A stretch of DNA of 46,126 nt. Source: a virus. The stretch spans positions 1 through 46,126 of the IMG/VR virus record IMGVR_UViG_3300011445_000032. One strand, written 5' to 3'. A program made the position numbers and the translations under genes. The notes beneath the pieces are model-generated. The model was not told where the DNA came from and did no database searches. It saw nothing but the letters and a program-made list of their open reading frames with translations. This document shows positions 2,274 through 33,468 of the stretch, one piece after another; the stretch's first letter is position 1; each line of letters opens with the position of its first letter.

Positions 2274-4655
2274 ATGGGACTGCTCCCCACGTGGATGCGG
2301 CGCATGCTGGCAGAGGTCCGGGGGACGTGGGTTGGACCGATCGACGCGAGCTCGCCGGAGATCGCCCGCCTGTTCGCCAGGCCGCCGACATCCACCGGCG
2401 TGGCGGTGTCCGAGCAGACGGCCCTGACGTATTCCGCGGTGTGGGCGGCGGTCTCCTTAATTGCCTCGAACGTGGCGTCATTACCGCTGATTCTCTATAA
2501 ACGGCTGCCCAATGGCGGCAAAGAGCGGCTCATTGGTCATCCGCTGTACCGCCTCCTGCACGATCAACCCAACGCCGAGATGACCTCGATGGTCTTCCGC
2601 GAGACGCTGCAGGCGCATGTGCTGACCTGGGGGAATGGGTACGCCGAGATCGAACGCGACCAGGGCGGCCGACCCGTGGCGCTCTGGCCGCTCACGCCTG
2701 ACCGCGTCCAGCCATTCCGTGAGGAACGGAGTCTCCGGCTGCGGTACCGCGTGCGCAACGCCGCCGGCCTGTCCGATGTGGTCATTGAGGCGCCGGACAT
2801 GCTGCATGTCCCTGGCCTCGGTTACGACGGCACGTGCGGCTACTCCGTCATCGCGAAGGCCCGCGAGTCGATCGGCCTGGGGTTGGCCACCGAACGGTTC
2901 GGCGGCACGTTCTTCGGCCAGGGCTCTACGTTCGGCGGGGTCCTCGAGCATCCGAAGCAGCTCGGGGAGATCGCCCAGAAGAAACTGCGCGCGTCGATCA
3001 ACGAGCGTCATCAAGGCGTCGACCGCGCGCATCGGTTTCTGATCCTCGAAGAAGGGATGCAGTACAAGCGGCTGGGCATCCCGCCGAACGATGCGCAGTT
3101 CCTCGAGACGCGCAAGTTCCAGATCGCGGAGGTGGCCCGCTGGTTCAATATGCCGCCACACAAGCTGCGCGACCTCGAACGCGCGACGTTCAGCAATATC
3201 GAGCACCAGAACATCGAGTGGGTCGTCGATACGCTCCGGAACTGGCTCGTGCGCTGGGAGCAGGAGATCAACCGGAAACTCGTCGCCTCCACGGAACGTA
3301 ACATCCAATTCGCCGAGCACCTGGTCGATGGGTTGCTCCGCGGGGACATCGCGAGCCGGTACGCCGCCTATGCCATCGGCCGCCAGTGGGGCTGGCTCTC
3401 GGCCGATGATGTGCGCGAGAAAGAGAACATGAACCCGTTGCCCGACGGGTCCGGTCAGCAGTACCTCGTGCCGTTGAACATGGTGCCCGCGGATCGCATG
3501 GACGAAGTGATCGACAAGCAAGTCGCCCCGGCGCCGACCCCGCCCGCCCTGCCGCCGCCGCCCCAGGAGGACGACGAGGACGACCCGGCCGTCGACGCCG
3601 AGGAGAAAGAGCGGGCCCTGGCGCGCGTCGAGGATGCGCTCGCCCGGGTGCAGGCGTCGATCCTGACGGAACTGCAGGCGGCCGGGACCGCGCTCAACGC
3701 GCGCGTGGAGGCGCTCCCGGGGCTCATCGTTCCGGAGGTGGTCGCTCCCTCCGCGAAGGCGGAGGCCGCCGCCGCGGCGGTCGCCCTGGCCGTGGCGCAC
3801 GTCGACGAGGCCGTCACCCGCGTCGACATCTCCCTCCGGACAGACCTGCAGGCCGCGGTCACCGCGCAGCAGGCGCACCTGGAGGCCTTGCCGTCCCGCG
3901 TCTCCGAGGCTGTCGAGCCCCACCTCGCGGCGGTGGCGCGAGACGTGGAGGCCCGGGCGTTGACCCTGGCCGCTGTGGAGGCGCGCGCCACGGACGCGGC
4001 TGCGCAGCTCCTCGAGGCCCGGGCGGAGGTCGAGCGGGAGCGCCAGGCGGGGGCCGCGCTCGCCGAAACGGCCCGCCTGACCGCCGAGGCCGAGGCGGCG
4101 TCGCGCGCCGTGGCGGTGGCTGCGCACCAGACCGCTCTGTCGGCGGCGGCGGCCCAGGCGGCCCAGGCCGCGGAGACGGAGCGGTCGCGCCTGGCCGCAG
4201 CGCTCGACGCCCAGCGCGCCACAGAGGCCGCCCGCCTGACCGCCGTCATCGCGGCACACCGGGCGCTGTTCGTCGATGCCGCCGGCCGCCTGCTGCGCAT
4301 CGAAGCCGACCGTGCGCGGCGGGCCCAGGCCACGCCCGAAAAACTGCGCCGCTGGATCGAGACGTTCTATCCCGTGCACGAGGACGTTTGCCGGATGGCG
4401 TTCCTGCCGGCGCTGCGCGCGCACCTGGCGTGGATGCAATCCGACGCCGATCCCGTCCAGATGGCCGCCACGATGGCAACCCAGCACGTCGAGGACTCCC
4501 GGCGGCAATTGACCGTGGTCCTGGACGTCGACGTCGGCACCGTCAATGAATCGTTGGAGACGGTGTTACGCCGCTGGGAAGGGGAACGCGCCGACCAGAT
4601 AGCCGATCGGGTCTTACAGGAGGCGGTGAGCTATGTCCGGACCACTGGCCGGTGA
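2274..4655 (+). CDS. Portal protein with long coiled-coil C-terminal extension
   Basis: Forms the dodecameric DNA entry vertex. Residues 1-415 are a normal HK97-type portal (Phage_portal family): ALTYSAVWAAVSLIASNVAS near the start, RWFNMPPHKLRDLERATFSN in the middle, then a region ending DVREKENMNPLP. After a proline and acidic hinge (about 419-445) comes some 240 residues of alanine-, glutamate- and arginine-rich sequence predicted to be coiled coil, then a folded 100-residue C-terminal domain. At 793 aa it is nearly twice the usual 400-450 aa. ATG 2274 has a GGAG 11-12 bases upstream; TTG 2265 is too close to that site. The 3' end overlaps the protease gene by 23 bases. Confidence 0.93.
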   Translation: MGLLPTWMRRMLAEVRGTWVGPIDASSPEIARLFARPPTSTGVAVSEQTALTYSAVWAAVSLIASNVASLPLILYKRLPNGGKERLIGHPLYRLLHDQPNAEMTSMVFRETLQAHVLTWGNGYAEIERDQGGRPVALWPLTPDRVQPFREERSLRLRYRVRNAAGLSDVVIEAPDMLHVPGLGYDGTCGYSVIAKARESIGLGLATERFGGTFFGQGSTFGGVLEHPKQLGEIAQKKLRASINERHQGVDRAHRFLILEEGMQYKRLGIPPNDAQFLETRKFQIAEVARWFNMPPHKLRDLERATFSNIEHQNIEWVVDTLRNWLVRWEQEINRKLVASTERNIQFAEHLVDGLLRGDIASRYAAYAIGRQWGWLSADDVREKENMNPLPDGSGQQYLVPLNMVPADRMDEVIDKQVAPAPTPPALPPPPQEDDEDDPAVDAEEKERALARVEDALARVQASILTELQAAGTALNARVEALPGLIVPEVVAPSAKAEAAAAAVALAVAHVDEAVTRVDISLRTDLQAAVTAQQAHLEALPSRVSEAVEPHLAAVARDVEARALTLAAVEARATDAAAQLLEARAEVERERQAGAALAETARLTAEAEAASRAVAVAAHQTALSAAAAQAAQAAETERSRLAAALDAQRATEAARLTAVIAAHRALFVDAAGRLLRIEADRARRAQATPEKLRRWIETFYPVHEDVCRMAFLPALRAHLAWMQSDADPVQMAATMATQHVEDSRRQLTVVLDVDVGTVNESLETVLRRWEGERADQIADRVLQEAVSYVRTTGR

Positions 4656-5226
4656 CGGTCTCGAGCGGCGCGTTTCCCTGGGCGAGCTGCGCGCGGATCT
4701 GACCGAGGATCGCAAGCTCCGCGGGTACGCGATCGTGTTCAACAAGCTCTCGCTGGATCTGGGCGGGTTTCGGGAGCGGATTCTCCCGGAGGCCGTCACG
4801 CGGACGCTCAAGGAGGCGCTCGATGTGCGGGCGCTCGTGGACCACGACCCGTCGAAGATCATCGGCCGGACGCGCGCCGGGACATTGGACCTGCGGAAAG
4901 ATGGCCACGGCCTGAAGGCGACGATCGACCCTCCGAACACCACGGTGGCGCGCGACCTCCTCGAATCGGTGAGCCGCGGCGACATCTCGGGCATGTCCTT
5001 CGCGTTCCGAACCCTCGAGGACGATTGGCACATGGAGGACGGAGAGGCCGTGCGCGAGGTCCTCGACATGGAGATCCGGGAAGTCTCGGTGGTCAGTTTC
5101 CCGGCGTACCCGCAGACCGATGTGGCCGTGGCGGTCCGGTCCCTCACAGCGTTTCAGGCGACGCGCGCGCCGCGACGGTCGCTGGACTGGTGGCAGCGAT
5201 GGCACAAGACCCAACTCGCCCGGTAG
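4633..5226 (+). CDS. Prohead maturation protease (HK97 type, peptidase U35)
   Basis: Serine protease that cleaves the capsid scaffold domain during head maturation. The 197-aa protein has the family core: LRGYAIVF near residue 30, the histidine motif LVDHDPSKIIGRT (His 71) and the serine motif GDISGMSFAF (Ser 119 or 122). A textbook AGGAGG lies at 4618-4623, nine bases before ATG 4633. It sits between portal and capsid, the standard order. The last 28 bases overlap the next small gene in another frame. Confidence 0.94.
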   Translation: MSGPLAGDGLERRVSLGELRADLTEDRKLRGYAIVFNKLSLDLGGFRERILPEAVTRTLKEALDVRALVDHDPSKIIGRTRAGTLDLRKDGHGLKATIDPPNTTVARDLLESVSRGDISGMSFAFRTLEDDWHMEDGEAVREVLDMEIREVSVVSFPAYPQTDVAVAVRSLTAFQATRAPRRSLDWWQRWHKTQLAR

Positions 5227-8477: not shown

Positions 8478-9056
8478 ATGGACCTGGAGATCACGACCAA
8501 CGCGCGCGAGGTGGCGGACCGCCTGCGAGATGCGGCCGTGCGGCTGCAGGCCTCATGGCGCAAGGCCATGCGGTCCCTCCAGCCGGACGCGGAACGCGCG
8601 CTGCGCGAGCAGCTCCAGGGCCGCACGCTGCAACGCCGCTCCGGACGGTTGAGTGACTCGATCCGCTCGCGCCTGGTCGAGACGTCGGACGGCGTCGCTG
8701 TTGAGGCCTATGCCGGGATTGGGTACGCCGGGCTGCTGCGGCGCGGGGGTGTGGTGACGGCCTCACGTGCCGCGCGGCTGGCCGTGCCGAGACCGGGCGT
8801 GCGGTTCAGTGCGCGGGCGTTCCTGGCCAACCCGGCCGCGTTTGGCTACAGCCGAGGGTTTGTGACCCCGCGGTCCATCATCGGCATCCATGACGACCGG
8901 ACGTTTGACGTGCTGTTCACGCGCCCGACCAGCGTCGCGATCCGGGCGTTCGACTTTGCCGTACCGGCGGCCCGGGCGCTCGAGCCGTTGGTGCGCGACC
9001 GCCTGACGAACGCCGTCGAGGAGGCGCTCCGACCGTTGGGTGAGGGGGGTGGGTAG
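8478..9056 (+). CDS. Tail completion / head-tail joining protein (HK97 gp10-like)
   Basis: A 192-aa protein beginning MDLEITTNAREVADRLRDAA with LQRRSGRLSDSIRS, typical of HK97 gp10-like minor tail proteins in which an RTGRL-like motif follows an N-terminal helix. These act where the tail joins the head. The stop overlaps the GTG start of the next gene at 9056, suggesting coupled translation. Confidence 0.65.
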   Translation: MDLEITTNAREVADRLRDAAVRLQASWRKAMRSLQPDAERALREQLQGRTLQRRSGRLSDSIRSRLVETSDGVAVEAYAGIGYAGLLRRGGVVTASRAARLAVPRPGVRFSARAFLANPAAFGYSRGFVTPRSIIGIHDDRTFDVLFTRPTSVAIRAFDFAVPAARALEPLVRDRLTNAVEEALRPLGEGGG

Positions 9057-11153: not shown

Positions 11154-11597
11154 ATGCCGCTCGTTCTCTTCAGCACGTTTCCCCTGCCCCTGCCGATCGA
11201 CGGCGCGATCGTCACGCTCGCGCTGAAACGCCTGGAGCCCGACGAGGTCACCTGGCTGAAAGCCGAGATGGCTCGCATGGAACAGGCGCAGCCCAACGAC
11301 CGATCAGCTGAGGCCTACGCCGGCGACCAGGCCTTCGTAACGCGGTGCCTCACCGACTTCGTGACCGTGGAACCCGGAGAGCTCAAGTTCGACGGCGCCG
11401 AGGTGCGAACGGGCGCGCAGTTCTTGCGCATCTTCGCCGCTCGGACGGATCTCCTGGCGCGCGTCGTCCAGGCGATCCTCGTCGAGAACGCGTGCACCGC
11501 GGAGCAGAAGCAGCAGCTCGCCGCGGCGCAGCGTCACGACGCCCCGATGCCCGCGCCACTGCAGGCCGTCGCGGGCGGACGAAAGCGAGCCCGATGA
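11154..11597 (+). CDS. Putative tail assembly chaperone
   Basis: A 147-aa protein located just upstream of the tape measure pair, where siphophages encode the G-type tail assembly chaperone. It contains a helical N-terminal half (LALKRLEPDEVTWLKAEMAR) and ends in a basic tail. The SD CCGGAGGAG precedes ATG 11154. The next gene starts at ATGA 11594. I looked for the -1 slippery site that often fuses G and GT proteins and saw none at the overlap, so the two are probably separate proteins. Confidence 0.5.
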   Translation: MPLVLFSTFPLPLPIDGAIVTLALKRLEPDEVTWLKAEMARMEQAQPNDRSAEAYAGDQAFVTRCLTDFVTVEPGELKFDGAEVRTGAQFLRIFAARTDLLARVVQAILVENACTAEQKQQLAAAQRHDAPMPAPLQAVAGGRKRAR

Positions 11598-12376
11598 CGA
11601 CACGGACGGTCATCGTCCCGATCGACAAGGAGCCCGTCAGGCTCACGGTCGCGCCGTACACGGTGCGCACGGCCCAGCAGCTCGCGGCGCTCGGCCCGCA
11701 GCCCGGGCCCGGCGCGATGCTGACCGGCCCGCGGCTGCTCGCCTATATCGACGTCGTGGGCCCGCTGGTGTCGGTCGCGCCTGGTGATGTGCCATTCGAC
11801 GGGCGCCCCATCACAGACGGGCGCGAGCTGCTCATCAGGCTGTGTGGCCGCCAGGACGTGCTCCAGGCCGTGCGCCGCGGCGCCATGACCGCGCAGAGCG
11901 TCACGGACGACGGGCCACGGCCGACGCGGCAGGACCTCCGCGTCGCGGTCCGGTTCACGGCCTGGCTGTCGGACCAGCGCCGCGGGAGCGCGGCGGAGTG
12001 GGTTCAGACGGGCGCCTCGTGCGGCGCCTGCCTCGTGCGAGGGCTCTCGACGTCGCGCGGCTGTGACGGCACACCGCAGCGCCACATCGTGTGGAACGAC
12101 GGCGGCGACCTCGTCGTGCGCGTCTGCCCGGTGCGATCGCTGTTGCCGGAGGTGGAGGCACTCCTGCAGCTGTTTCGCCTGACCCACGACATCACCTTCG
12201 CACCCTCTGGGCTCCCGCAGTATGTGCGCGTCGCACTCCCGGCCGCCGGCGGCGTGCTCGACCAGGACGCGTGGACGCTCGAGGCCCTGGACGTCGTCCG
12301 GGCGACCGTGAACGAGCGCCTCGTGCGCGAGTTCCGCCGGCACCAGGAACAGGAAGCCGAGCGCCGCCATGTCTGA
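11594..12376 (+). CDS. Hypothetical tail protein with cysteine cluster
   Basis: A 260-aa protein that starts MTTRTVIVPIDKEPVRLTVA and has a cysteine-rich central part (ASCGACLVRGLSTSRGC, about residues 138-156) that could bind zinc or iron, then VVRVCPVRSLLPEVEALL. It occupies the slot of the second tail-assembly chaperone but looks different from known GT proteins. The start overlaps the previous stop and its end overlaps the tape measure start by 8 bases. Confidence 0.5.
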   Translation: MTTRTVIVPIDKEPVRLTVAPYTVRTAQQLAALGPQPGPGAMLTGPRLLAYIDVVGPLVSVAPGDVPFDGRPITDGRELLIRLCGRQDVLQAVRRGAMTAQSVTDDGPRPTRQDLRVAVRFTAWLSDQRRGSAAEWVQTGASCGACLVRGLSTSRGCDGTPQRHIVWNDGGDLVVRVCPVRSLLPEVEALLQLFRLTHDITFAPSGLPQYVRVALPAAGGVLDQDAWTLEALDVVRATVNERLVREFRRHQEQEAERRHV

Positions 12377-14642
12377 ACAGAACGTCGACATCGTTCTGCG
12401 CGGCCGAGACATCAGCCAGGAGGCCTTCCAGGGCGTGCAGGGCTCCCTGAGCAACCTCGGGACGACGGTCGGCCAGGTGCTCGGCACCGTGCGCAACGCG
12501 TGGTCCCAGATGGGCGGCACGCAGGCCCTGAAGGGCCTGGCCGAGGACGCCGGCAAGCTCGCCGACTTGTCATCGCAGACAGGGGTGTCGATCGAGGCGC
12601 TGCAGCGGCTCGGGTTTGCCGCCGAGCAGAGCGGGTCTTCGATGGAGAAGATCGCCCGCGCCGCGAGCACGATGGGGAAGACGCTCGCCGGCGGGTCGGA
12701 TTCGACGAAGGCCGCGATCGAGGCGCTCGGGTTGTCGTTCGACGAGCTCCGCGGCATGAAGCCGGAAGACGCGTTGCTGAAGATCGGCGACGCGCTCGGC
12801 CCGATGGAGGACAAGTTCAAGCAGACGCAGATCGCCGCGCAGCTGTTCGGCAAGGCCGGGATCGAGCTGTTGCCGACGCTCTCGTCCAACATGCGCGAGG
12901 TCGGCGCCAGCGCGACCGTGATGACGGAGCAGACGGTCACGGCGCTCGACGATGCCGGCGATCGGATCGACGCCGCTAAGGCCAATCTCCAGGCGCAGCT
13001 CGGGAACCTGCTCGGGAGCGTCGTGGCGGCCGTCGGCCCTGATGTCGTGGCGCTCGGGGCGATGTTCGGCACGGTGGCGAGCACGATCGCGCCGCTCATT
13101 CCGGCGATCGCGACCCTTTGGCCGTCGCTGGTGGGCCTCGCCGGTACGATCGGGACCGCCCTGGTGCCGGCCCTTGGGCTGCTGCTGTCGCCGATTGGCC
13201 TGGTCGTGGCGGCCGTCGTGGGCCTCGGGTTGATTTGGTATAAGTGGGGCGACGACATCAAGGCCGTCGTCAGCGCCGTCTACACCACCGTCAAAGAGTA
13301 CCTCTGGGACAAGTTCGAAGCCATCGTCGGGGCGATCGCCGGCATCCTCACCACGATCAAGGGGTATTGGGACGGGTTCATGGGCGGCGTGACGGCCGTC
13401 GTCACCGAGACCGCCGCGACCACGAAGACCTTCCTCGTGGACAAGTTCGAGACGGTGAAGAGCGGCGTCAGCAGTGCGTTGACAACGGTGAAGGGGTACT
13501 GGGACGCGCACAACGCGGCCGTCGGGACGGTGCTCGGGCTCATCGTCGGGAAGGTCTCGGAGTGGATCGGCGACCTGACCGAGTGGCTGGGGCCGAAGCT
13601 GCGGTCGATCTTCGAAGCCACGAAGGCGATCATCACTCTGATTTACACCTACCACGTCGAGATGGCGCGGATGGTGATCGAGAAGGTCAGCGACCTGTTC
13701 CGTCAGCTGACGGACTACTTCGGCGCCAAGCTCCGCGCGATCGTGACGGCCGTCAAGACCATCATCGATCCGATCGTGACGTTCTTCACCAGCGTGAAGG
13801 ACCGCGCGATCGCGGCCGCTGAGCAGCTGTACACCGGCGTTAAGCAGTGGCTGGTCGATCGGTTCGACGCCATTGTCGCCGGCATCAAATCGAAGATCGA
13901 CGCGGTCACCGGGTTCTTCAAGGACATGTACGACAAGGTCGTCGGCTCGTCCTACGTCGTGGACCTAGTGGAAGGCATCGGCGACTGGTTCGGGCGCCTC
14001 CAAGAGTACATGGTGCAGCCGGCGGAAGAGGCCACGGGCGCGGTCGCGTCCGCCTTCAACGAACTGAACAGCGACGTCAATCTCCGGGAGCTCGGGCGAA
14101 ACTTCGCGCAGACGCTCGACGACATGCGCATCGAGGCCGGCGGGTGGAAGGACAAGGTTCTCGACATCTGGGGCGAGGTCCGAGACGGGATCAGTGAGCG
14201 GATCGGAGACGTCAAGCGGACCTTCGAGCAAGCGCTCACCGACATGCTGCTGGGCCAGACGTCGTTCAAAGAAGGCATGAAGGCGATCTGGGACGCGATC
14301 AAAGAGGCCGTCGTGAGCACTGTCGTCAGCATGATCGCCAACATCCTGAGCGAGTACATCAAGGCGATCGGCATCATCGTCAGCCCGCCTCGGCCTGGTG
14401 GGGGTGGCGGGGGAGGCATCATCACGCCGCCGCCACCACCACCGCCACCAACCGGCGGTGATCGTGGTGGCTCCTTTGCGGTGTTCGGCGCGGCGGCGGC
14501 GCGAACGTTCAGCGTGAGCGGGGCGAGCGTCCAGGCGCCGGTAGTGATACCCGCGCAGTTGATCGTGAATGGTCGCGTGCTGGCGGAAGTGGCGTACGAC
14601 CGCCTGCCGAGCCTGCTCCAGGCGCGCGGCGTGCTGACGTAG
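12369..14642 (+). CDS. Tape measure protein
   Basis: Sets tail length and helps DNA entry. The 757-aa protein starts with a scaffold-like N-terminus (DIVLRGRDISQEAFQGVQG), has a long hydrophobic alanine, glycine and leucine stretch at about 211-292 with several membrane-like segments, and then repeated TVKEYLWDKFEAI / TIKGYWDGF-type units of roughly 11 residues with regularly placed Trp and Phe, typical of tape measures. A flexible glycine-rich then eight-proline linker lies near 671-696. At roughly 0.15 nm per residue the tail would be about 110 nm. Confidence 0.9.
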   Translation: MSEQNVDIVLRGRDISQEAFQGVQGSLSNLGTTVGQVLGTVRNAWSQMGGTQALKGLAEDAGKLADLSSQTGVSIEALQRLGFAAEQSGSSMEKIARAASTMGKTLAGGSDSTKAAIEALGLSFDELRGMKPEDALLKIGDALGPMEDKFKQTQIAAQLFGKAGIELLPTLSSNMREVGASATVMTEQTVTALDDAGDRIDAAKANLQAQLGNLLGSVVAAVGPDVVALGAMFGTVASTIAPLIPAIATLWPSLVGLAGTIGTALVPALGLLLSPIGLVVAAVVGLGLIWYKWGDDIKAVVSAVYTTVKEYLWDKFEAIVGAIAGILTTIKGYWDGFMGGVTAVVTETAATTKTFLVDKFETVKSGVSSALTTVKGYWDAHNAAVGTVLGLIVGKVSEWIGDLTEWLGPKLRSIFEATKAIITLIYTYHVEMARMVIEKVSDLFRQLTDYFGAKLRAIVTAVKTIIDPIVTFFTSVKDRAIAAAEQLYTGVKQWLVDRFDAIVAGIKSKIDAVTGFFKDMYDKVVGSSYVVDLVEGIGDWFGRLQEYMVQPAEEATGAVASAFNELNSDVNLRELGRNFAQTLDDMRIEAGGWKDKVLDIWGEVRDGISERIGDVKRTFEQALTDMLLGQTSFKEGMKAIWDAIKEAVVSTVVSMIANILSEYIKAIGIIVSPPRPGGGGGGGIITPPPPPPPPTGGDRGGSFAVFGAAAARTFSVSGASVQAPVVIPAQLIVNGRVLAEVAYDRLPSLLQARGVLT

Positions 14643-16352: not shown

Positions 16353-16718
16353 ATGGCTAAACGAACGATTCCACCAGGGACGACGTCGGTCATCCTCGAC
16401 GTCTTCATCCAGGACAGCACACAGACGGATGGGCGCGGCCTCGCCGGCCTCGTCCACAACTCCGCCAGCCTCACGGCCTATTACCACCGCGACACGGCCG
16501 CCGCGGCGGTCGCGGTGACCCTCGTCACCATGACCGTCGGCACCTTCACGTCTTCCGGGTTCAAGGAGATCAGCAGCGCCAACATGCCAGGGTGCTATCA
16601 GCTCTGCCTCCCCGATGCCGCGTTCGCATCTGGGGCCAAGAGCGTCTCGGTGCTCCTGAAAGGCGCGGCGGACATGGCGCCGCTCGCGCTCGAAGTTCAG
16701 CTCACGACGGCCGTCTGA
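16353..16718 (+). CDS. Stand-alone copy of the hub N-terminal module
   Basis: A 121-aa protein, MAKRTIPPGTTSVILDVFIQ onward, which is nearly the same along its whole length as the first 120 residues of the next gene (shared TDGRGL-GLVHN, YYHR, LVTMTVGTFTS-GFKE, MPG-YQ-CLPDA). It looks like a beta-sandwich tail module, similar to modules joined to other domains in phage tail proteins. ATG 16353 starts eight bases after the previous stop. Confidence 0.6.
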   Translation: MAKRTIPPGTTSVILDVFIQDSTQTDGRGLAGLVHNSASLTAYYHRDTAAAAVAVTLVTMTVGTFTSSGFKEISSANMPGCYQLCLPDAAFASGAKSVSVLLKGAADMAPLALEVQLTTAV

Positions 16719-16725
16719 CGACCCT

Positions 16726-18378
16726 ATGGCCAAGTACGTCGTCCCTCCCGGCGAGACGTCGCGCATCTGCGAGGTGTTCATTCTGGACACGTCGGAGACC
16801 GACGGGCGTGGCCTGACGGGGCTCGTGCACAACACCTCTGGGCTGACCTGCTACTACCACCGGAACCGCGCCGCGTCGGCCGTGGCCGTCTCCCTGGTGA
16901 CGATGACGGTCGGCACGTTCACGTCGGGCGGCTTCAAGGAAGTCGACGCGACGAACATGCCGGGCGTCTATCAGGTCTGCCTGCCAGACGCGGTGTACGC
17001 GGACGGATCGCAGAGTGTCGTCGCGTTCCTCAAGGGCGCCGCCAACATGGCGCAGACGCCCTTCGAGATCCAGATCACATCGGTCACCAACGAATCCCCG
17101 TCCGACTTCATCGTCTGGATCGACGACATCAACCGCACCAGCTACGTGCAGTCTGGGCTGATCTACCGGCGCGTCATCAACGACATCGGGACGTGCGACT
17201 TCGACTTCGAGGACATCACCGGCGCTCTCATACCGGAGGCCGACCAGCTCGTCGAGGTCGAGATCGGCGGCGTCATCAAGTGGTCCGGCACGATCGCCCA
17301 CGTCTCCGGTCTGACGTTCCTCGGGCGCGTGACCGGCATCAACTGCCACGTCGTTGCGCAGGACTTCAACCAGGTCCTGCTCCGCACGCTCGTCAATGAC
17401 ATCTTCCCGGCGGACACGCTGAAGGCGCTGCTCGAGGAACTCGTCGGCTCCATCGGCTGGCTCGCTGATTACGGCATCTCTCTCGCCGCAGACCAGGTCG
17501 ACGGTCCAGCGCTCACCGAAATCGTGGCGCCCTGGATGACGGGCGAGGAGCTGCTCCGCTACCTCTCCGAGCTCACGAACTTCGTGCGGCACATCAACTC
17601 GAATCGCGAGCTCGAGATGTGGGACATCGGCACGAAGGATAGCGGCGTCACGCTCTCGATCGACAACGCCACGATCATCGACGCCGAATACGAGATCAGT
17701 CGGTTCGACTATCGCAATGTGCAGTACGTCGTCTACGGCCCGAACGAAGTGCTGACTGTGACGGACACGTGGATCGGGGACGGCAGCATTCAGGAGTTCC
17801 CGCAGCGGTACAGCGTGCAGGCGACGCGGCCGGAGACCGTGAACGTCGATGGCGTCGACTTCCCGGTCGGCATCTTCGGCGTTGACGTCATGGAGTGGAC
17901 CTGGCGCGAGTCCGATCACACGCTCGTCCAGGACGGCACGCCGGTCCCGAACGGGGACGTCATCATTGCCGTCTACACGTCGCTGTTTCCCAACTCGGTC
18001 GTCTTCGACGATCCGACGGAGATCGGCCTGCATGGTCCCTGGCTCAAGGTGGAGTTCGTCGAAAGCATCCTGACCTACGAGGAGGCGCTCGCCTACGCCG
18101 AGAACCTCATCAGGGTGAATCTGCCGCGGCCGCCGCTCCCTCGTATCAGCACGGAGGTGACGACCATCGAGCCCGGGCGACTCGTGATCGCCGACCTGCC
18201 GGAGATCGGGCTCGACGAGGTGCAGTGCTTCGTGCGCGGTATCGAGGTCCGCGTGATTCAGCAGGGCACGCAGGTGTATCGCGAGACGACCCTCGATCTG
18301 ATCGGCGGCGAGGAGCTGCCGGCCAACAGCGTGATCGATATGTGGCGCCGGATCGTTTTTGGAGTTTCGACGCAATGA
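16726..18378 (+). CDS. Baseplate hub-like tail protein with duplicated N-terminal module
   Basis: A 550-aa protein. Residues 1-120 are a paralogue of the 121-aa protein just upstream. From about 125 it reads FIVWIDDINRTSYVQSGLIY, continuing with the beta-domain order of tail hub proteins of the gp27/gpD or ReqiPepy6 Gp37-like kind, with GLTFLGRVTGINCHVVAQDF and a C-terminal ISTEVTTIEPGRLVIADLP. Such proteins form the trimeric ring at the tail end under the tape measure. The protein lacks a visible peptidase motif. The hub role is inferred from order and fold. Confidence 0.62.
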   Translation: MAKYVVPPGETSRICEVFILDTSETDGRGLTGLVHNTSGLTCYYHRNRAASAVAVSLVTMTVGTFTSGGFKEVDATNMPGVYQVCLPDAVYADGSQSVVAFLKGAANMAQTPFEIQITSVTNESPSDFIVWIDDINRTSYVQSGLIYRRVINDIGTCDFDFEDITGALIPEADQLVEVEIGGVIKWSGTIAHVSGLTFLGRVTGINCHVVAQDFNQVLLRTLVNDIFPADTLKALLEELVGSIGWLADYGISLAADQVDGPALTEIVAPWMTGEELLRYLSELTNFVRHINSNRELEMWDIGTKDSGVTLSIDNATIIDAEYEISRFDYRNVQYVVYGPNEVLTVTDTWIGDGSIQEFPQRYSVQATRPETVNVDGVDFPVGIFGVDVMEWTWRESDHTLVQDGTPVPNGDVIIAVYTSLFPNSVVFDDPTEIGLHGPWLKVEFVESILTYEEALAYAENLIRVNLPRPPLPRISTEVTTIEPGRLVIADLPEIGLDEVQCFVRGIEVRVIQQGTQVYRETTLDLIGGEELPANSVIDMWRRIVFGVSTQ

Positions 18379-21530: not shown

Positions 21531-23290
21531 CCGCGTTTCCACGGCTCTCACCAGACGCCGCGCACGTCACCAGCGGCTGGGGCACCGTTGAGATCGACGG
21601 CCGCCCGATTGCGCCGGGGCAAGGCAGTTGCTGGTTCAATCGCGAGCAAATCGTGTACGGCGATCCGCAGGGGTGCCCGTGGTTGTACGGGGGCGGGACG
21701 CAGTTGAAACTCGCGTCGGTCGGCTACAACGACCTGGTCGCTGGCGGTGGCCGCTGGGCCGGAGGGATCGTCAACAGCGCGGTCGTGCGCATCGATCGCA
21801 GTGACGGGCCGTCGATCGAACGCGCCTACCAGCCGGCCATGTCGGATGCCGGCGACCTCGCCTACCTCACAGCTCCAACGTCGCCAGAGCACGAGCTGCG
21901 GTGCATCCGCGCAGGCGGCACGCGCGCGGACCTGATCACTGCTGGTCCGATTGAGTATCCGTCCGTCTGTTCTGCCGGGATCGTCTGGTCCAGTTTCGCG
22001 AGCGGGATTCAGCGCACCTGGGCCTGTCCAACCGGCGACACCCCGCGCGAAGTCCACGCGAGCTTCTGCCGGTGGGAAGTGCGCCCGATCGCCGTCGATG
22101 TCGGCGGGGCGCTGTGGGTCTGCTCGGTCGATGAGACGCGCGTGCTGCTCTACCCGGCCGGATCTACCTTCGGGTACGTCGTCATCGAAGGGTCGGTCGG
22201 AGAAGCCAATTCCAAGGATGTGCGCTACGACCTGACGCGCCGAGCGTTCCGCTGTGTCTACACGCAAGGCGAACAGTTGATCTGGATCGATGCCTTCCGC
22301 GTGGACCTGTCGAAGCCGCCGAATGTCGATCCGCCACAGCCTGAACCGATCGTTCCGCTGCCGGCCGGCACCGTCATCGCAGACACGCTGCCCTATGTCA
22401 TCGGCACGCCGGCCGCCTGGCCGCGCGTCGGCGACGAGGGCGGCAACATGGACTGCGTGCCGGTCGCCGGCCAGGCCGCGGTCGCGTTCGTGAAGTTCGC
22501 CTCGCCTTCATTCGCCGAGTGGTGGCGCTGGGACGGCGACTACATCTACCACCACGAGGACCGGTCAGACGGCCTCGACCAGCCGTACCACTGGACGAAG
22601 GACCGTTGGATCAAGCGGCGCTGGGCCATCGGCGAGCAGATAGACAGCCGAGAGAACAACGTCATCAGGCGCACGGCTGACGAGGGCGACAACTGGAGCG
22701 AGCGCCCGTGGGCGATGGTTATGCGGTTCGTGGCCGCGTTCGAGTCCTACCCGTGCGGCGGCGACATCGGCGACGCGCCGGTCATCGTCGTGGAGTACGA
22801 CCCGACCTACACATTGGAACCGCGCCGCGGCGGCGTCGAGCGCTTCTGGTTCGCCGCTGGCTGGGGCTGGTTCCGCTGGCAGTCGGCGCCCTTTGGCACC
22901 GTCTTCGACTTCTCCCCGGACCCGTCCACGCCGAACCTGACCGATGCCTTCTTTCACCGTCTCGGCGGCGTGCGCGTGACGCCGATCGATCCCGTCCGTC
23001 CGTGGGCGGCGCCGCCCGTTGAACCACCACCAGAGGAGCCTATGAAACCGCGCGACCAGTTCTACCGAGAGTTTCAGGACGTCAACGCCTTCTATCAGGC
23101 CGACGAGGGACTGAAGCGGCCCGGCGGCATGATGCTCAACGACCCGTCCCGCTGCGACGTCGAGGCGATGGGCGCGTGGGGCTACGACCTCGCCGCCGGC
23201 AAGACCGTCAACGACTGCAAGAACGCCATCGTGCGGTCCGACGAATGGGCGACGAAGCACCCGGGCGAGGTACCACCGACTTTCCCGTAG
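21527..23290 (+). CDS. Large tail-tip or fibre protein, first part of a -1 frameshift pair
   Basis: A 587-aa protein. The first ~250 residues repeat short beta-strand blocks (WGTVEIDGRPIAPGQGSCWF; NDLVAGGGRWAGGIVNSAVV) like a beta-propeller. A proline hinge follows (PPNVDPPQPEPIVPLPAG), then a second globular part with many aromatic residues, then a PPVEPPPEEP hinge and a short helical end with FYREFQDVNAFYQADEG. It starts at GTG 21527. The frame stops at TAG 23288, directly after a TTTCCCG heptamer, and the -1 frame goes on without a break into the next gene. No enzyme motif is recognised; likely host-contact protein. Confidence 0.6.
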   Translation: MTAFPRLSPDAAHVTSGWGTVEIDGRPIAPGQGSCWFNREQIVYGDPQGCPWLYGGGTQLKLASVGYNDLVAGGGRWAGGIVNSAVVRIDRSDGPSIERAYQPAMSDAGDLAYLTAPTSPEHELRCIRAGGTRADLITAGPIEYPSVCSAGIVWSSFASGIQRTWACPTGDTPREVHASFCRWEVRPIAVDVGGALWVCSVDETRVLLYPAGSTFGYVVIEGSVGEANSKDVRYDLTRRAFRCVYTQGEQLIWIDAFRVDLSKPPNVDPPQPEPIVPLPAGTVIADTLPYVIGTPAAWPRVGDEGGNMDCVPVAGQAAVAFVKFASPSFAEWWRWDGDYIYHHEDRSDGLDQPYHWTKDRWIKRRWAIGEQIDSRENNVIRRTADEGDNWSERPWAMVMRFVAAFESYPCGGDIGDAPVIVVEYDPTYTLEPRRGGVERFWFAAGWGWFRWQSAPFGTVFDFSPDPSTPNLTDAFFHRLGGVRVTPIDPVRPWAAPPVEPPPEEPMKPRDQFYREFQDVNAFYQADEGLKRPGGMMLNDPSRCDVEAMGAWGYDLAAGKTVNDCKNAIVRSDEWATKHPGEVPPTFP

Positions 23291-24378
23291 GGGGCGGGGG
23301 GCCTGCGCCAGGTCCACTCCCCGTCCCTCTTCAGGACCAACTTTTTGGCTGCTTCTGGTGGGGTGTCTTCACCGACATCGAAGCCGGCAAGCAGCGCGAC
23401 GAATTCTTTCGGCGCACGCAAGATGCCGGCTGCAACGCGACCGAGTCCGGGCTCGACAACGCGTGGTTCGACTACCCGGAGCACGGCCACGGCGGGTTCG
23501 TGCCATGGGAGCGGGCCAACGGTTCGCCGGCGTTCGGCGGCACGGGCCCATTCGATCTCACCCGGAAGTCTGAGGCGTTCTGGGACCACTACCTCGCGGG
23601 CGTTGAGTCGGCCATCGCCCACGGGCAGGTGGTGCAGGTCAAGGTCGCGCCGAATTACTACAGCTGCGCGTCGCACACGCAGGGCGCGCTCTGGGTGCCG
23701 GACCGCGATCTGAATCCGCGCCGCTACAACATCCAGGGCGAACGACTCGGCGACCCGGACAACGACCGGGGCATTCATGACTATGTCGGCACCGACGATG
23801 ACTGGGTGGGCAACGCCCTCATCGAGGAAGGCTGTCGCCGGTTCAAGCCCTACGTGGAGCGCGGGCAGCTGTACTTCTGCACGGCGCTCGAAATGGCGCA
23901 GAAGGAACTGCACGTCCGGGTGCGCGACCGCATCCTCGGTCATCTGTCGGACGCGATCGTCATCGCCAACCGGCAGGAGTGGCCGACCGGCATGTGGCGG
24001 AACATGGTCCGCAAGACCGGGTTCGACGGCAACGAAGAGCACAAGAAACCCATTCTGGAGAAGTTCCTCGCCGAGTACGACGCCAACAACCTGCCGCCCA
24101 CGCGGTCAGAGATGCTGGCCGAGGCGCGGGCCTACAACCCGTGTTCGGCGTTCTGGTCGTCTGACGGCTGCCGGATCGACAAGGACCCGGACCGTTGCTA
24201 CGACTACCCGAACCTGGAGGAGCACGCGGTCTACATCCTCCGGGAGTTCGGCGGGAACTGGTGTCAGCAGTCGGTCTCCAAGATGCCGCAGTACTCCTGG
24301 GGCCGCGTGGACCTCGGGCCCATGGACCGGAACGAGATCCCGATGCTCAAGAACATCTACCGGCGGTGGAAGGCATGA
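23245..24378 (+). CDS. Second part of the frameshift pair, glycan-binding or hydrolase-like
   Basis: The folded part starts at about 23330 (LFGCFWWGVFTDIEAGKQRD) and is rich in aromatic and acidic residues, resembling a TIM-barrel glycoside-hydrolase-like domain (acid residues in WFDYPEHGHGG and LEEHAVYILREFGG), but no catalytic motif can be assigned. The nearest ATG (23245) lies inside the upstream gene and has no ribosome site. The likely product is a 950-aa fusion from -1 slippage at 23281-23287, with the frame change inside a proline and glycine linker (VGGGGPAPGPLPVPL). If slippage is real, the 363 residues from 23287 are the extension. A single-base sequence error is the alternative. 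Confidence 0.6.
   Translation: MGDEAPGRGTTDFPVGGGGPAPGPLPVPLQDQLFGCFWWGVFTDIEAGKQRDEFFRRTQDAGCNATESGLDNAWFDYPEHGHGGFVPWERANGSPAFGGTGPFDLTRKSEAFWDHYLAGVESAIAHGQVVQVKVAPNYYSCASHTQGALWVPDRDLNPRRYNIQGERLGDPDNDRGIHDYVGTDDDWVGNALIEEGCRRFKPYVERGQLYFCTALEMAQKELHVRVRDRILGHLSDAIVIANRQEWPTGMWRNMVRKTGFDGNEEHKKPILEKFLAEYDANNLPPTRSEMLAEARAYNPCSAFWSSDGCRIDKDPDRCYDYPNLEEHAVYILREFGGNWCQQSVSKMPQYSWGRVDLGPMDRNEIPMLKNIYRRWKA
23281..23327 (+). promoter_or_regulatory. Candidate -1 programmed ribosomal frameshift signal
   Basis: Slippery heptamer T TTC CCG in the zero frame (23281-23287) fits X XXY YYZ exactly and is followed at once by the UAG stop (23288-23290). A stem starts at 23291: GGGGCGGGG (23291-23299) pairs with CCCCGTCCC (23319-23327), nine pairs with one G-U, enclosing an inner hairpin CCTG-CGC-CAGG (23302-23312). 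The spacer is only 3 bases, shorter than typical. Confidence 0.6.
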
Positions 24379-31806: not shown

Positions 31807-33468
31807 CTAATTGTCCTCATCGACCGGCTGCAAAATACGCTGCTCGCCCTGCCGCTCTGGGGCCTTCGGCGCCTTCTTGAAGGTCGTGCTGGCCTGCACG
31901 GGCGGACGGTCTAGCGTCTTGCCCGTGAGCAAGTCCTCGACCGTGAGGATCTGCAAGCGCGGATGCTTGCCCCACGGCGACGTGTAGAAGCCCGCGCTGG
32001 CCGCTTCCTTCCTCATCGGTCCGGTCGGTTCCTCCAGGCACAGCAGCGCGCCCATCTCTGCCTTCTCTCTATCCAGCACGCCACGAAGATCGCGGAGATG
32101 TGAGACGCTGACGTGACCGGCCTTCACCGAGAGGATGATCTGCTTCGTCTTTGAGCCGGCGCCTTCGTGGAAGTAGATCCGACCGTCGATGCCGTGGTCG
32201 CGGCCCTTCTTTTCATCGACGGGTCGAGCACCGACCAAGCCGAGCGCCCACCACTGGAACTGATACGGATCGTCGGCCGCTAGCTTCACCGCATCCGGTA
32301 GCGACACTGGCTCACCGATGACTTTGTACTCGGCCGCCGTGATGAACGTGTCTGCCAGCCGACTACGAATCAGGCTGATGGCAAGGCTCGTAATGTCGAT
32401 TCCGATCCATCGCCGCTTCAGTTTCTGAGCAGCCGCAATCGTCGTGCCGCAGCCGCAGAACGGATCCAGTACGGTGTCGCCTTCGTTGCTGGACGCGAGG
32501 ATGATGCGCTCAAGTAGTGCCTCCGGCTTTTGCGTCGGGTAGCCAAGACGCTCCCTCGCCGACGTCTGCAGGCGAATATCCGTCCACACGTCGAGGGCTG
32601 GAACCCCCTTGGACTCGTCAAGGTACAGCCTCAACATGGGAGTTCCGCCGGCTTTCTTCGGCCAGAAGACGCGGCCCATCTTGTCCAGAGCTTCAAGCGC
32701 CTCAATCGTGTCGAGATCACCGATGACATCACGGGCGAACCCAGGGACTGCCCAATGCCGACCCTTCGCGGTCGGATCAATTCCACGCCACTGCTTTCCA
32801 GATGAACCGGACCGAACGCCAGGCGCCGTAAGCGTGTTCCGATTGAATCTGCGTCCTGTATCCGGTTCCACATTGTTGAACCACGCGTCCGCAGTCTCCT
32901 GTGGCAGGGGCATATAGGCAGGGTTCCATACGTACGCCTCGCCCTTTGTGTAGAAGAAAATTGTGTCGTGTATCGGCCCAAATCGCTTGGAGCTGCCGTG
33001 CGCCCCAGTCCGCTTCCAGATGATTTCGTTCCGGAAACACTGTGGACCGAAGACGGCATCGAGGAGCATCTTCAGGTAGTGGCTCGCGGTCGGGTCGCAG
33101 TGCAGGTAGATTGATCCGGTCGGATTCAGCACGCGCCGCAGCTCCAAGAGCCGAGGCGCCATCATGGCGAGGTAGGCCATCATGTCGCTGTCGCCGAGGA
33201 GCGTCCGAAACGCCTGCATCGCCTCAGACACCTTGCCGCCCGCCACGATCACCTCGTCGCACGAGCGCGCGGCGGCTTCGTCCCACTTCCACGTATCGCT
33301 GAACGCCTTGATCTGAGACGCTGCTTCCGTCCCATCGTGCTCGGCGAACAGCACGTTGTACGAGGCATTCGAGTTGAAAGGCGGGTCTAGGTAGACGAGA
33401 TCGACGCTGGCGTCGTCGATGTGACGCCGCATCACTTCGAGGTTGTCGCCGTAGAATAGTTGGTTCAT
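31807..33468 (-). CDS. DNA methyltransferase fused to an Mrr-like nuclease domain
   Basis: A 553-aa fusion. Residues 1-380 are a beta-class amino-methyltransferase: motif IV DPPF at 28-31 (as in N6-adenine or N4-cytosine enzymes) precedes motif [16 protein letters not shown] near 333-347. Residues ~400-515 form a restriction-endonuclease-like domain with [11 protein letters not shown] (Asp 428) and [10 protein letters not shown] (Ser 447, Lys 449), followed by conserved [19 protein letters not shown]. In Mrr-type enzymes the motif is Asp then (E/Q)xK; here Ser replaces E/Q, so cleavage is uncertain. It may be a modification enzyme with a regulatory or silent nuclease domain, or a one-gene restriction-modification system. 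Gap to upstream gene: 27 bases. Confidence 0.8.

Follow-up and report, generated by a model that had tools for sequence, protein, structure and literature searches.

A conserved slip site, stem-loop and linker point to programmed −1 frameshifting that would add a glycoside-hydrolase-like barrel to a siphophage protein

Programmed −1 ribosomal frameshifting, by which two overlapping open reading frames (ORFs) would be fused into one long product, is very probably the best explanation for a gene pair of a metagenomic phage. The site combines a zero-frame X XXY YYZ heptamer near a stop codon with a long coding −1 ORF that lacks a conserved start of its own (Table 1). A frameshift fusion had already been proposed in a first-pass annotation of this DNA, and it stands as the best-supported reading, with the same heptamer and the same −1 relation recurring in two further phages.

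Table 1. Positions of the features of the gene pair and its junction in the window
Feature	Positions	Strand	Remarks
Upstream ORF, 587 aa	21527..23290	+	GTG start behind GGAGG ribosome site; UAG stop
82-aa C-terminal domain with possible internal start AGAGGAGCCTATG	23042..23290	+	In frame with upstream ORF
Shine-Dalgarno-like GGGCGAGG (GCGAGG), candidate upstream stimulator	23263..23270	+	About 10 nt before slip site
Slippery heptamer T TTC CCG	23281..23287	+	In frame of upstream ORF; same in L043 (2016) and L046 (5953)
−1-frame extension, 363 codons	23287..24378	+	Gly/Pro linker, then (beta/alpha)8-like domain; stop 24376-24378
UAG, 0-frame stop	23288..23290	+	Directly 3′ of heptamer; likewise in L046; 18 nt farther downstream in L043
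Stem-loop with inner hairpin	23290..23328	+	Outer stem 23291-23299 / 23319-23327 plus pair 23290-23328
Candidate pseudoknot pairing, GGTCC (23311-23315) with GGACC (23334-23338)	23311..23338	+	Both invariant in three phages

The window, that is, the whole stretch of DNA analyzed, is one IMG/VR virus record of 46,126 bases. Judging from its sequence, the phage that carries the gene pair is a tailed, temperate siphophage known from metagenomes only, and the genes of the window include those for terminase, portal, protease, capsid, adaptor, tape measure and integrase. A lysozyme-like gene precedes the pair and a fibre gene of the GP4 gp80 type follows it 0.8 kb downstream. The first-pass annotation had called the two genes tail tip genes, a label that finds no backing, since Pfam and PHROGs profile searches gave no match for either the upstream protein or the extension and the pair lies between lysozyme-like and fibre genes. 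The Rfam and tRNA searches of the window returned no match. The tape measure gene (12369-14639) lies far from the slip site; the two genes that precede it (11154-12376) overlap as ATGA (11594-11597), with no canonical slippery heptamer there, so that the usual tail chaperone frameshift seems absent from the window. Elsewhere in the window, two neighbouring genes (16353-18378) resemble each other over their first 120 residues or so; this duplicated domain is also present in many otherwise different phage contigs. In addition, a single minus-strand gene near the integrase (31807-33468) combines a DNA methylase domain with a restriction-endonuclease-like domain (NA-iREase1/Mrr-like).

By position-specific GC, the coding signal passes from the upstream to the −1 frame near 23290; codon-model scores locate the switch broadly, within about 23245-23350. 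On both grounds, the upstream ORF and the −1 ORF look coding. The −1 frame is open from 23023 to its stop, giving products of 587 aa without a slip and of 587 + 363 = 950 aa with one, and the predicted fusion junction reads ...PPTFPVGGGGPAPG... Both lengths agree with the first-pass annotation, as do the position of T TTC CCG immediately before UAG and the Gly/Pro linker that opens the −1-frame continuation. In-frame X XXY YYZ heptamers occur at only 12 of the 10,713 codon positions in the window's genes, and T TTC CCG at 23281 is, apart from C CCG GGC at 23260, the sole one that lies at most 10 codons from the stop of its gene and has a −1 frame of more than 300 codons. Given this rarity, the proximity of the stop and the long −1 frame, the heptamer at 23281 is not a chance occurrence.

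Other heptamers of the window were rejected as slip sites. C CCG GGC at 23260, within the same overlap, is absent from L043 and is reported as a non-shifty motif (PMC4066793), and G GGG GGT at 9044 falls inside the ribosome site of the next gene. Another T TTC CCG, at 5097-5103 in the gene for the head maturation protease, was taken as a control and appears to be an incidental codon pair that encodes a conserved SFPAYP motif; nucleotide similarity to its counterpart in another contig (L054) collapses past the 0-frame stop, the −1 frame not being conserved.

Direct searches with each protein against viral contigs, phages and bacterial genomes returned nothing, and a DNA search of plasmids gave short spurious matches only. 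Relatives were reached via the terminase and the tail gene at 16726-18378, then by searches within those records and by alignment of the barrel. Contig 3300045965_000122 (L043) has the same two-gene arrangement, −1 relation and heptamer, GAG rather than a stop being the next codon; its upstream protein is 72-74% identical to that of the window over the last 321 residues (267-587 in the window's numbering), and its downstream protein 37-38%. Contigs 3300045952_000116 (L046) and 3300045931_000290 (L048), identical over the compared region, share with the window the two-gene arrangement, the −1 continuation and the sequence TTTCCCGTAGGGGGCGGGGG, whereas the end of the upstream protein in L046 has no meaningful blastp similarity to that of the window (E about 0.7). 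A scan of the collection for TTTCCCGNNGGGGGCGGGG found six stretches, three of them in the phages with this arrangement; the other three (L049, L050 and L053) are chance matches of the DNA pattern in which the two-ORF arrangement is absent. The conservation thus comes from three distinct phages, L043 and L046 being close to each other in the barrel (79%).

In the comparison of the window with L046, the similarity begins on the slip site itself. Before the heptamer, 19 of 60 bases match (the 60 nt that end 12 nt upstream, which is chance level) and 4 of the last 12, whereas agreement rises to 21 of 22 bases once the heptamer begins, and BLASTN homology starts on the first base of the heptamer (window 23281-23353 against L046 5953-6022; 73 nt, 80.8%, E = 8.5e-11). 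The first 24 codons of the −1 frame have a nucleotide identity of 81-84% between the window and L043 and L046, compared with mostly 40-65% in later blocks, and between the window and L046 identity past these codons is about 50% through the remaining ORF. The best-conserved part of the −1 frame reads FPxGGGGPxGPxPVPxxDQLFGC. In L043 as in L046/L048, the site is therefore conserved beyond its neighbouring sequence, and this island, running from the slip site over stem and linker, has the look of a selected frameshift signal. A further relative, linked by its propeller and tail genes (L024, 3528-5014), has a like gene order with a barrel ORF in the −1 frame that carries its own GANES motif; its junction contains no canonical heptamer and reads GAC CCT TCG UAG, followed by a strong hairpin.

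Downstream of the heptamer, the 9-pair stem around a second hairpin described in the first-pass annotation is right, one of its pairs being G-U, and the minimum-energy fold adds the pair that reaches 23290. Stem and inner hairpin of the window fold at −27.7 kcal/mol, and the fold energies of the 50 nt that follow the heptamer fall into the bottom 0.3-0.7% of those of 50-nt stretches of the window. Against shuffled sequences, z ranges from −1.55 to −2.15 in the window and L043 (window segment −1.69; L043 −2.15) and is −0.58 in L046. When fully formed, the stem, which modestly beats its shuffles, begins 2-3 nt past the heptamer, compared with the approximately 4-10 nt expected for stimulators. 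The 3-base spacer had been noted as short, and so it is, but it need not be an obstacle given the length of the stem: once the first pairs open and 5-6 nt are free, what is left keeps a predicted fold energy of −18 to −21 kcal/mol.

As evidence for a frameshift signal, conservation carries more weight than fold energy by itself. Across the aligned junctions of the three phages, each of the 14 consensus pairs persists and none is broken; two have one-sided changes (G-U/G-C and A-U/G-U) and none is changed on both sides. Third-codon positions in the outer stem are constant apart from one, at which pairing is maintained, whereas the loop is variable. For the 24-codon junction as a whole, synonymous conservation (11/18 vs 46/95, p = 0.23) does not reach significance on its own, and the minimum-energy fold of L046 differs to some extent from the consensus if the segment ends at 55 nt. 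The sequence further suggests that GGTCC in the inner hairpin and GGACC shortly past the stem could pair into a pseudoknot. The Shine-Dalgarno-like element has an anti-Shine-Dalgarno energy of −8.5 in the window and −7.3 in L043, among the strongest 5% of coding positions, and of only −5.5 in L046.

Based on these features, we propose that ribosomes on the upstream ORF would decode TTC CCG (23282-23287) and that most of them would terminate at the adjacent UAG, releasing the 587-aa form. A fraction would re-pair on TTT CCC, for which tandem slippage of tRNA-Phe and tRNA-Pro is the simplest route, and would go on reading in the −1 frame; the GC-rich stem-loop, which may form a pseudoknot, and perhaps the GCGAGG element would assist the shift. 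Shifted ribosomes would then add the Gly/Pro linker and the glycoside-hydrolase-like barrel to give the 950-aa form. We infer the slippage itself as well as its efficiency. In a survey of all heptamers in E. coli, those with CCN codons, including mixed ones like CCG, were weaker slippers, but the three heptamers at which the IS3 pseudoknot brought about no shift did not include U_UUC_CCG (PMC4066793). By this analogy, slippage at T TTC CCG is likely to be modest, and a host similar to E. coli would be expected to make a modest share of the long form, given that CCN motifs are weaker and yet this one did not fail. The description of the site as near-textbook therefore overstates its motif, a CCN heptamer less shift-prone in E. 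coli (PMC4066793).

Alternatively, the barrel ORF could be a separate overlapping gene that initiates at GTG 23176 or ATG 23245, independently or coupled to the upstream stop, a reading that we regard as improbable. The earlier claim that the −1 frame has no credible start other than ATG 23245 proved incomplete, because GTG 23176, with GAGG 10 nt upstream (−5.9 kcal/mol, compared with −2.4 kcal/mol for the ATG), exists as well and is the one candidate with anything resembling a ribosome site; in L024, an ATG for the barrel ORF in the corresponding place lies 36 nt past the upstream stop. The window, L043 and L046 nevertheless share no −1-frame start equipped with a ribosome site: L043 has a −1-frame stop between the counterpart of GTG 23176 and the slip site, and its only candidate, GTG 1980 (−3.3), comes right after a −1-frame stop and lacks a ribosome site, as does the only candidate of L046, TTG 5890 (−3.9). 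Past the slip site, the nearest start in the window is GTG 23500, within the barrel. The conserved FPxGGGGPxGPxPVPxxDQLFGC stretch precedes any usable −1 start, which makes separate initiation unlikely; moreover, in L046 heptamer and stem are conserved although the sequence before them is unrelated. A frameshift by another route appears more improbable still, whether one tRNA slips on C_CCG while UAG occupies the A site or the slippage is transcriptional. UAG does directly follow CCG in the window and L046, and when combined with the IS3 pseudoknot in E. coli, C_CCG exceeded background 1.8- to 3.6-fold (PMC4066793), but L043 retains the whole heptamer with GAG, not a stop, behind it, and the runs at the slip site are just three T and three C, the G runs of the window lying past the stop. 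We give hardly any credence to the idea that the two ORFs are really one gene, split by the erroneous loss or gain of a base near 23290 during sequencing or assembly. The window is a single metagenomic contig and its GC-rich homopolymer region GGGGGCGGGGGG is error-prone, but the same −1 relation in L043, L046 and L048, which are separate assemblies, contradicts an error, and UAG precedes the G runs in both the window and L046.

A nested gene would add to the frameshift reading rather than compete with it. Initiation at 23042 would yield an 82-aa protein and, after the shift, a barrel protein of 445 aa, which could accompany or replace the 587/950-aa pair; we consider this conceivable but rather unlikely. 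In four phages, a ribosome site and an in-frame start lie at the beginning of the small C-terminal domain (GAGGAG...ATG 23042 in the window, at 23033-23044; GGAGG...GTG 1780 in L043; GGAG...ATG 5693 in L046; GAGG...ATG 3528 in L024), and only 34 of the window's 462 internal in-frame ATG and GTG codons (7.4%) have such a ribosome site. Against this, the pattern was found after the fact in phages that are not independent of each other, and in all four of them the upstream frame is open straight through.

Under frameshifting, the added domain looks like a predicted glycoside-hydrolase-like (beta/alpha)8 barrel of roughly 345 residues. AlphaFold2 gave a low-confidence model of the extension (pLDDT 56, pTM 0.66) with alternating strands and helices, for which the best Foldseek matches were the GH140 apiosidase (E = 9.7e-7) and many GH5 enzymes, at a TM of about 0.5; the related structures 8t9w, 4qfu and 1rh9 (GH140/GH5) have about 10% identity to the extension. 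The extension proteins had no profile match above cut-off, Pfam Apiosidase being hit for L046 only and below it (E = 0.021). A Glu (position 204) at an acid/base-like place is kept in the three phages, within ANE in L043 and L046 and ALE in the window; of the two catalytic carboxylates expected in a GH140/GH5-type hydrolase, it is the only one with a candidate. Frameshifting would probably serve to equip a minority of the copies of a virion or cell-surface-acting protein with an enzyme-like C-terminal domain; we infer the location of that protein and the activity of the domain.

The upstream ORF encodes an N-terminal part, a Pro-rich linker, a middle domain, a second Pro-rich linker and the 82-aa C-terminal domain. 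The N-terminal part is putatively propeller-like, and structure prediction of the middle domain gave no usable model (pLDDT 31). L043 and L046 have the N-terminal part (59%) and the barrel (79%) in common, not the middle domain, whereas the middle domain of L043 matches that of the window (72%), whose N-terminal part is different. The Pro-rich linkers are the places where modules are joined, and barrel and frameshift junction remain together. In L046, a large repetitive ORF (2412-4490) with no Pfam match lies immediately before the propeller gene, and its C-terminus appears to resemble an intramolecular chaperone of tail spikes. We tentatively suggest, with more doubt than conviction, that slip site, stem, Gly/Pro linker and enzyme-like barrel form a portable recoding cassette that moves between phages behind unrelated upstream domains and that, with the conserved internal start, could give up to four products per gene (587, 950, 82 and 445 aa).

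If frameshifting operates here, recoding would set how many copies of a virion or surface-acting protein carry an enzyme, and gene finders would miss fusions of this kind. An island that starts on the slip site suggests that the frameshift signal is retained together with the added domain across mosaic genomes, and the conserved junction offers a 70-nt element that is directly testable.

Frameshifts near the end of a gene that add a C-terminal domain to a fraction of the copies have been described as Ig-like extensions of structural proteins in phage T3 (coat protein) and Lactobacillus phage A2, a modular domain found on different proteins (Fraser et al., as cited in PMC5009743). Compared with what is related there, the domain predicted here is a glycoside-hydrolase-type barrel, along with which slip site, stem and linker are conserved; its alpha/beta barrel pattern is the wrong fold for an Ig-like extension, so that the site is not of that type. 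The fusion of the major tail protein with TpeX in lactococcal 936 phages and the tail extension of SPP1 likewise arise from a shift at the stop codon, and their long forms decorate the tail, with a proposed role in carbohydrate binding (PMC4759559); these are +1 shifts in the major tail protein (CCC.UAG in a 936 phage), whereas the site described here lies in another gene and combines T TTC CCG with a stem for a predicted −1 shift. The tail assembly chaperones G/GT also use a −1 slippery heptamer in the structural region of siphophages (Xu et al. 2004, as cited in PMC3556154), and joined genes in the SEA-PHAGES set are tail assembly chaperones in 2397 of 2476 cases (PMC10885494). As summarized in the citing paper, however, the G/GT site lies just before the tape measure gene, and the site at 23281, being in the wrong place, is not of the chaperone type. 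The −1 frameshift of IS3/IS911 transposases resembles ours in its heptamer, and its 3′ hairpin or pseudoknot and Shine-Dalgarno-like upstream stimulator have candidate counterparts here, but its motif is usually A_AAA_AAG or alike, whereas the CCN motif found here is expected to be less efficient (PMC4066793). As for the domain itself, its predicted (beta/alpha)8 fold would match that of GH140 apiosidase and GH5 hydrolases, with the conserved Glu at an acid/base-like place; identity is low and the fold matches are weak. In the literature searched, which was largely open-access, we found no paper on a frameshift that adds a glycosidase-like barrel. The mechanism is known in kind; the new aspects are that the extension is enzyme-like and that slip site, stem and linker are conserved behind upstream domains that are unrelated to each other.
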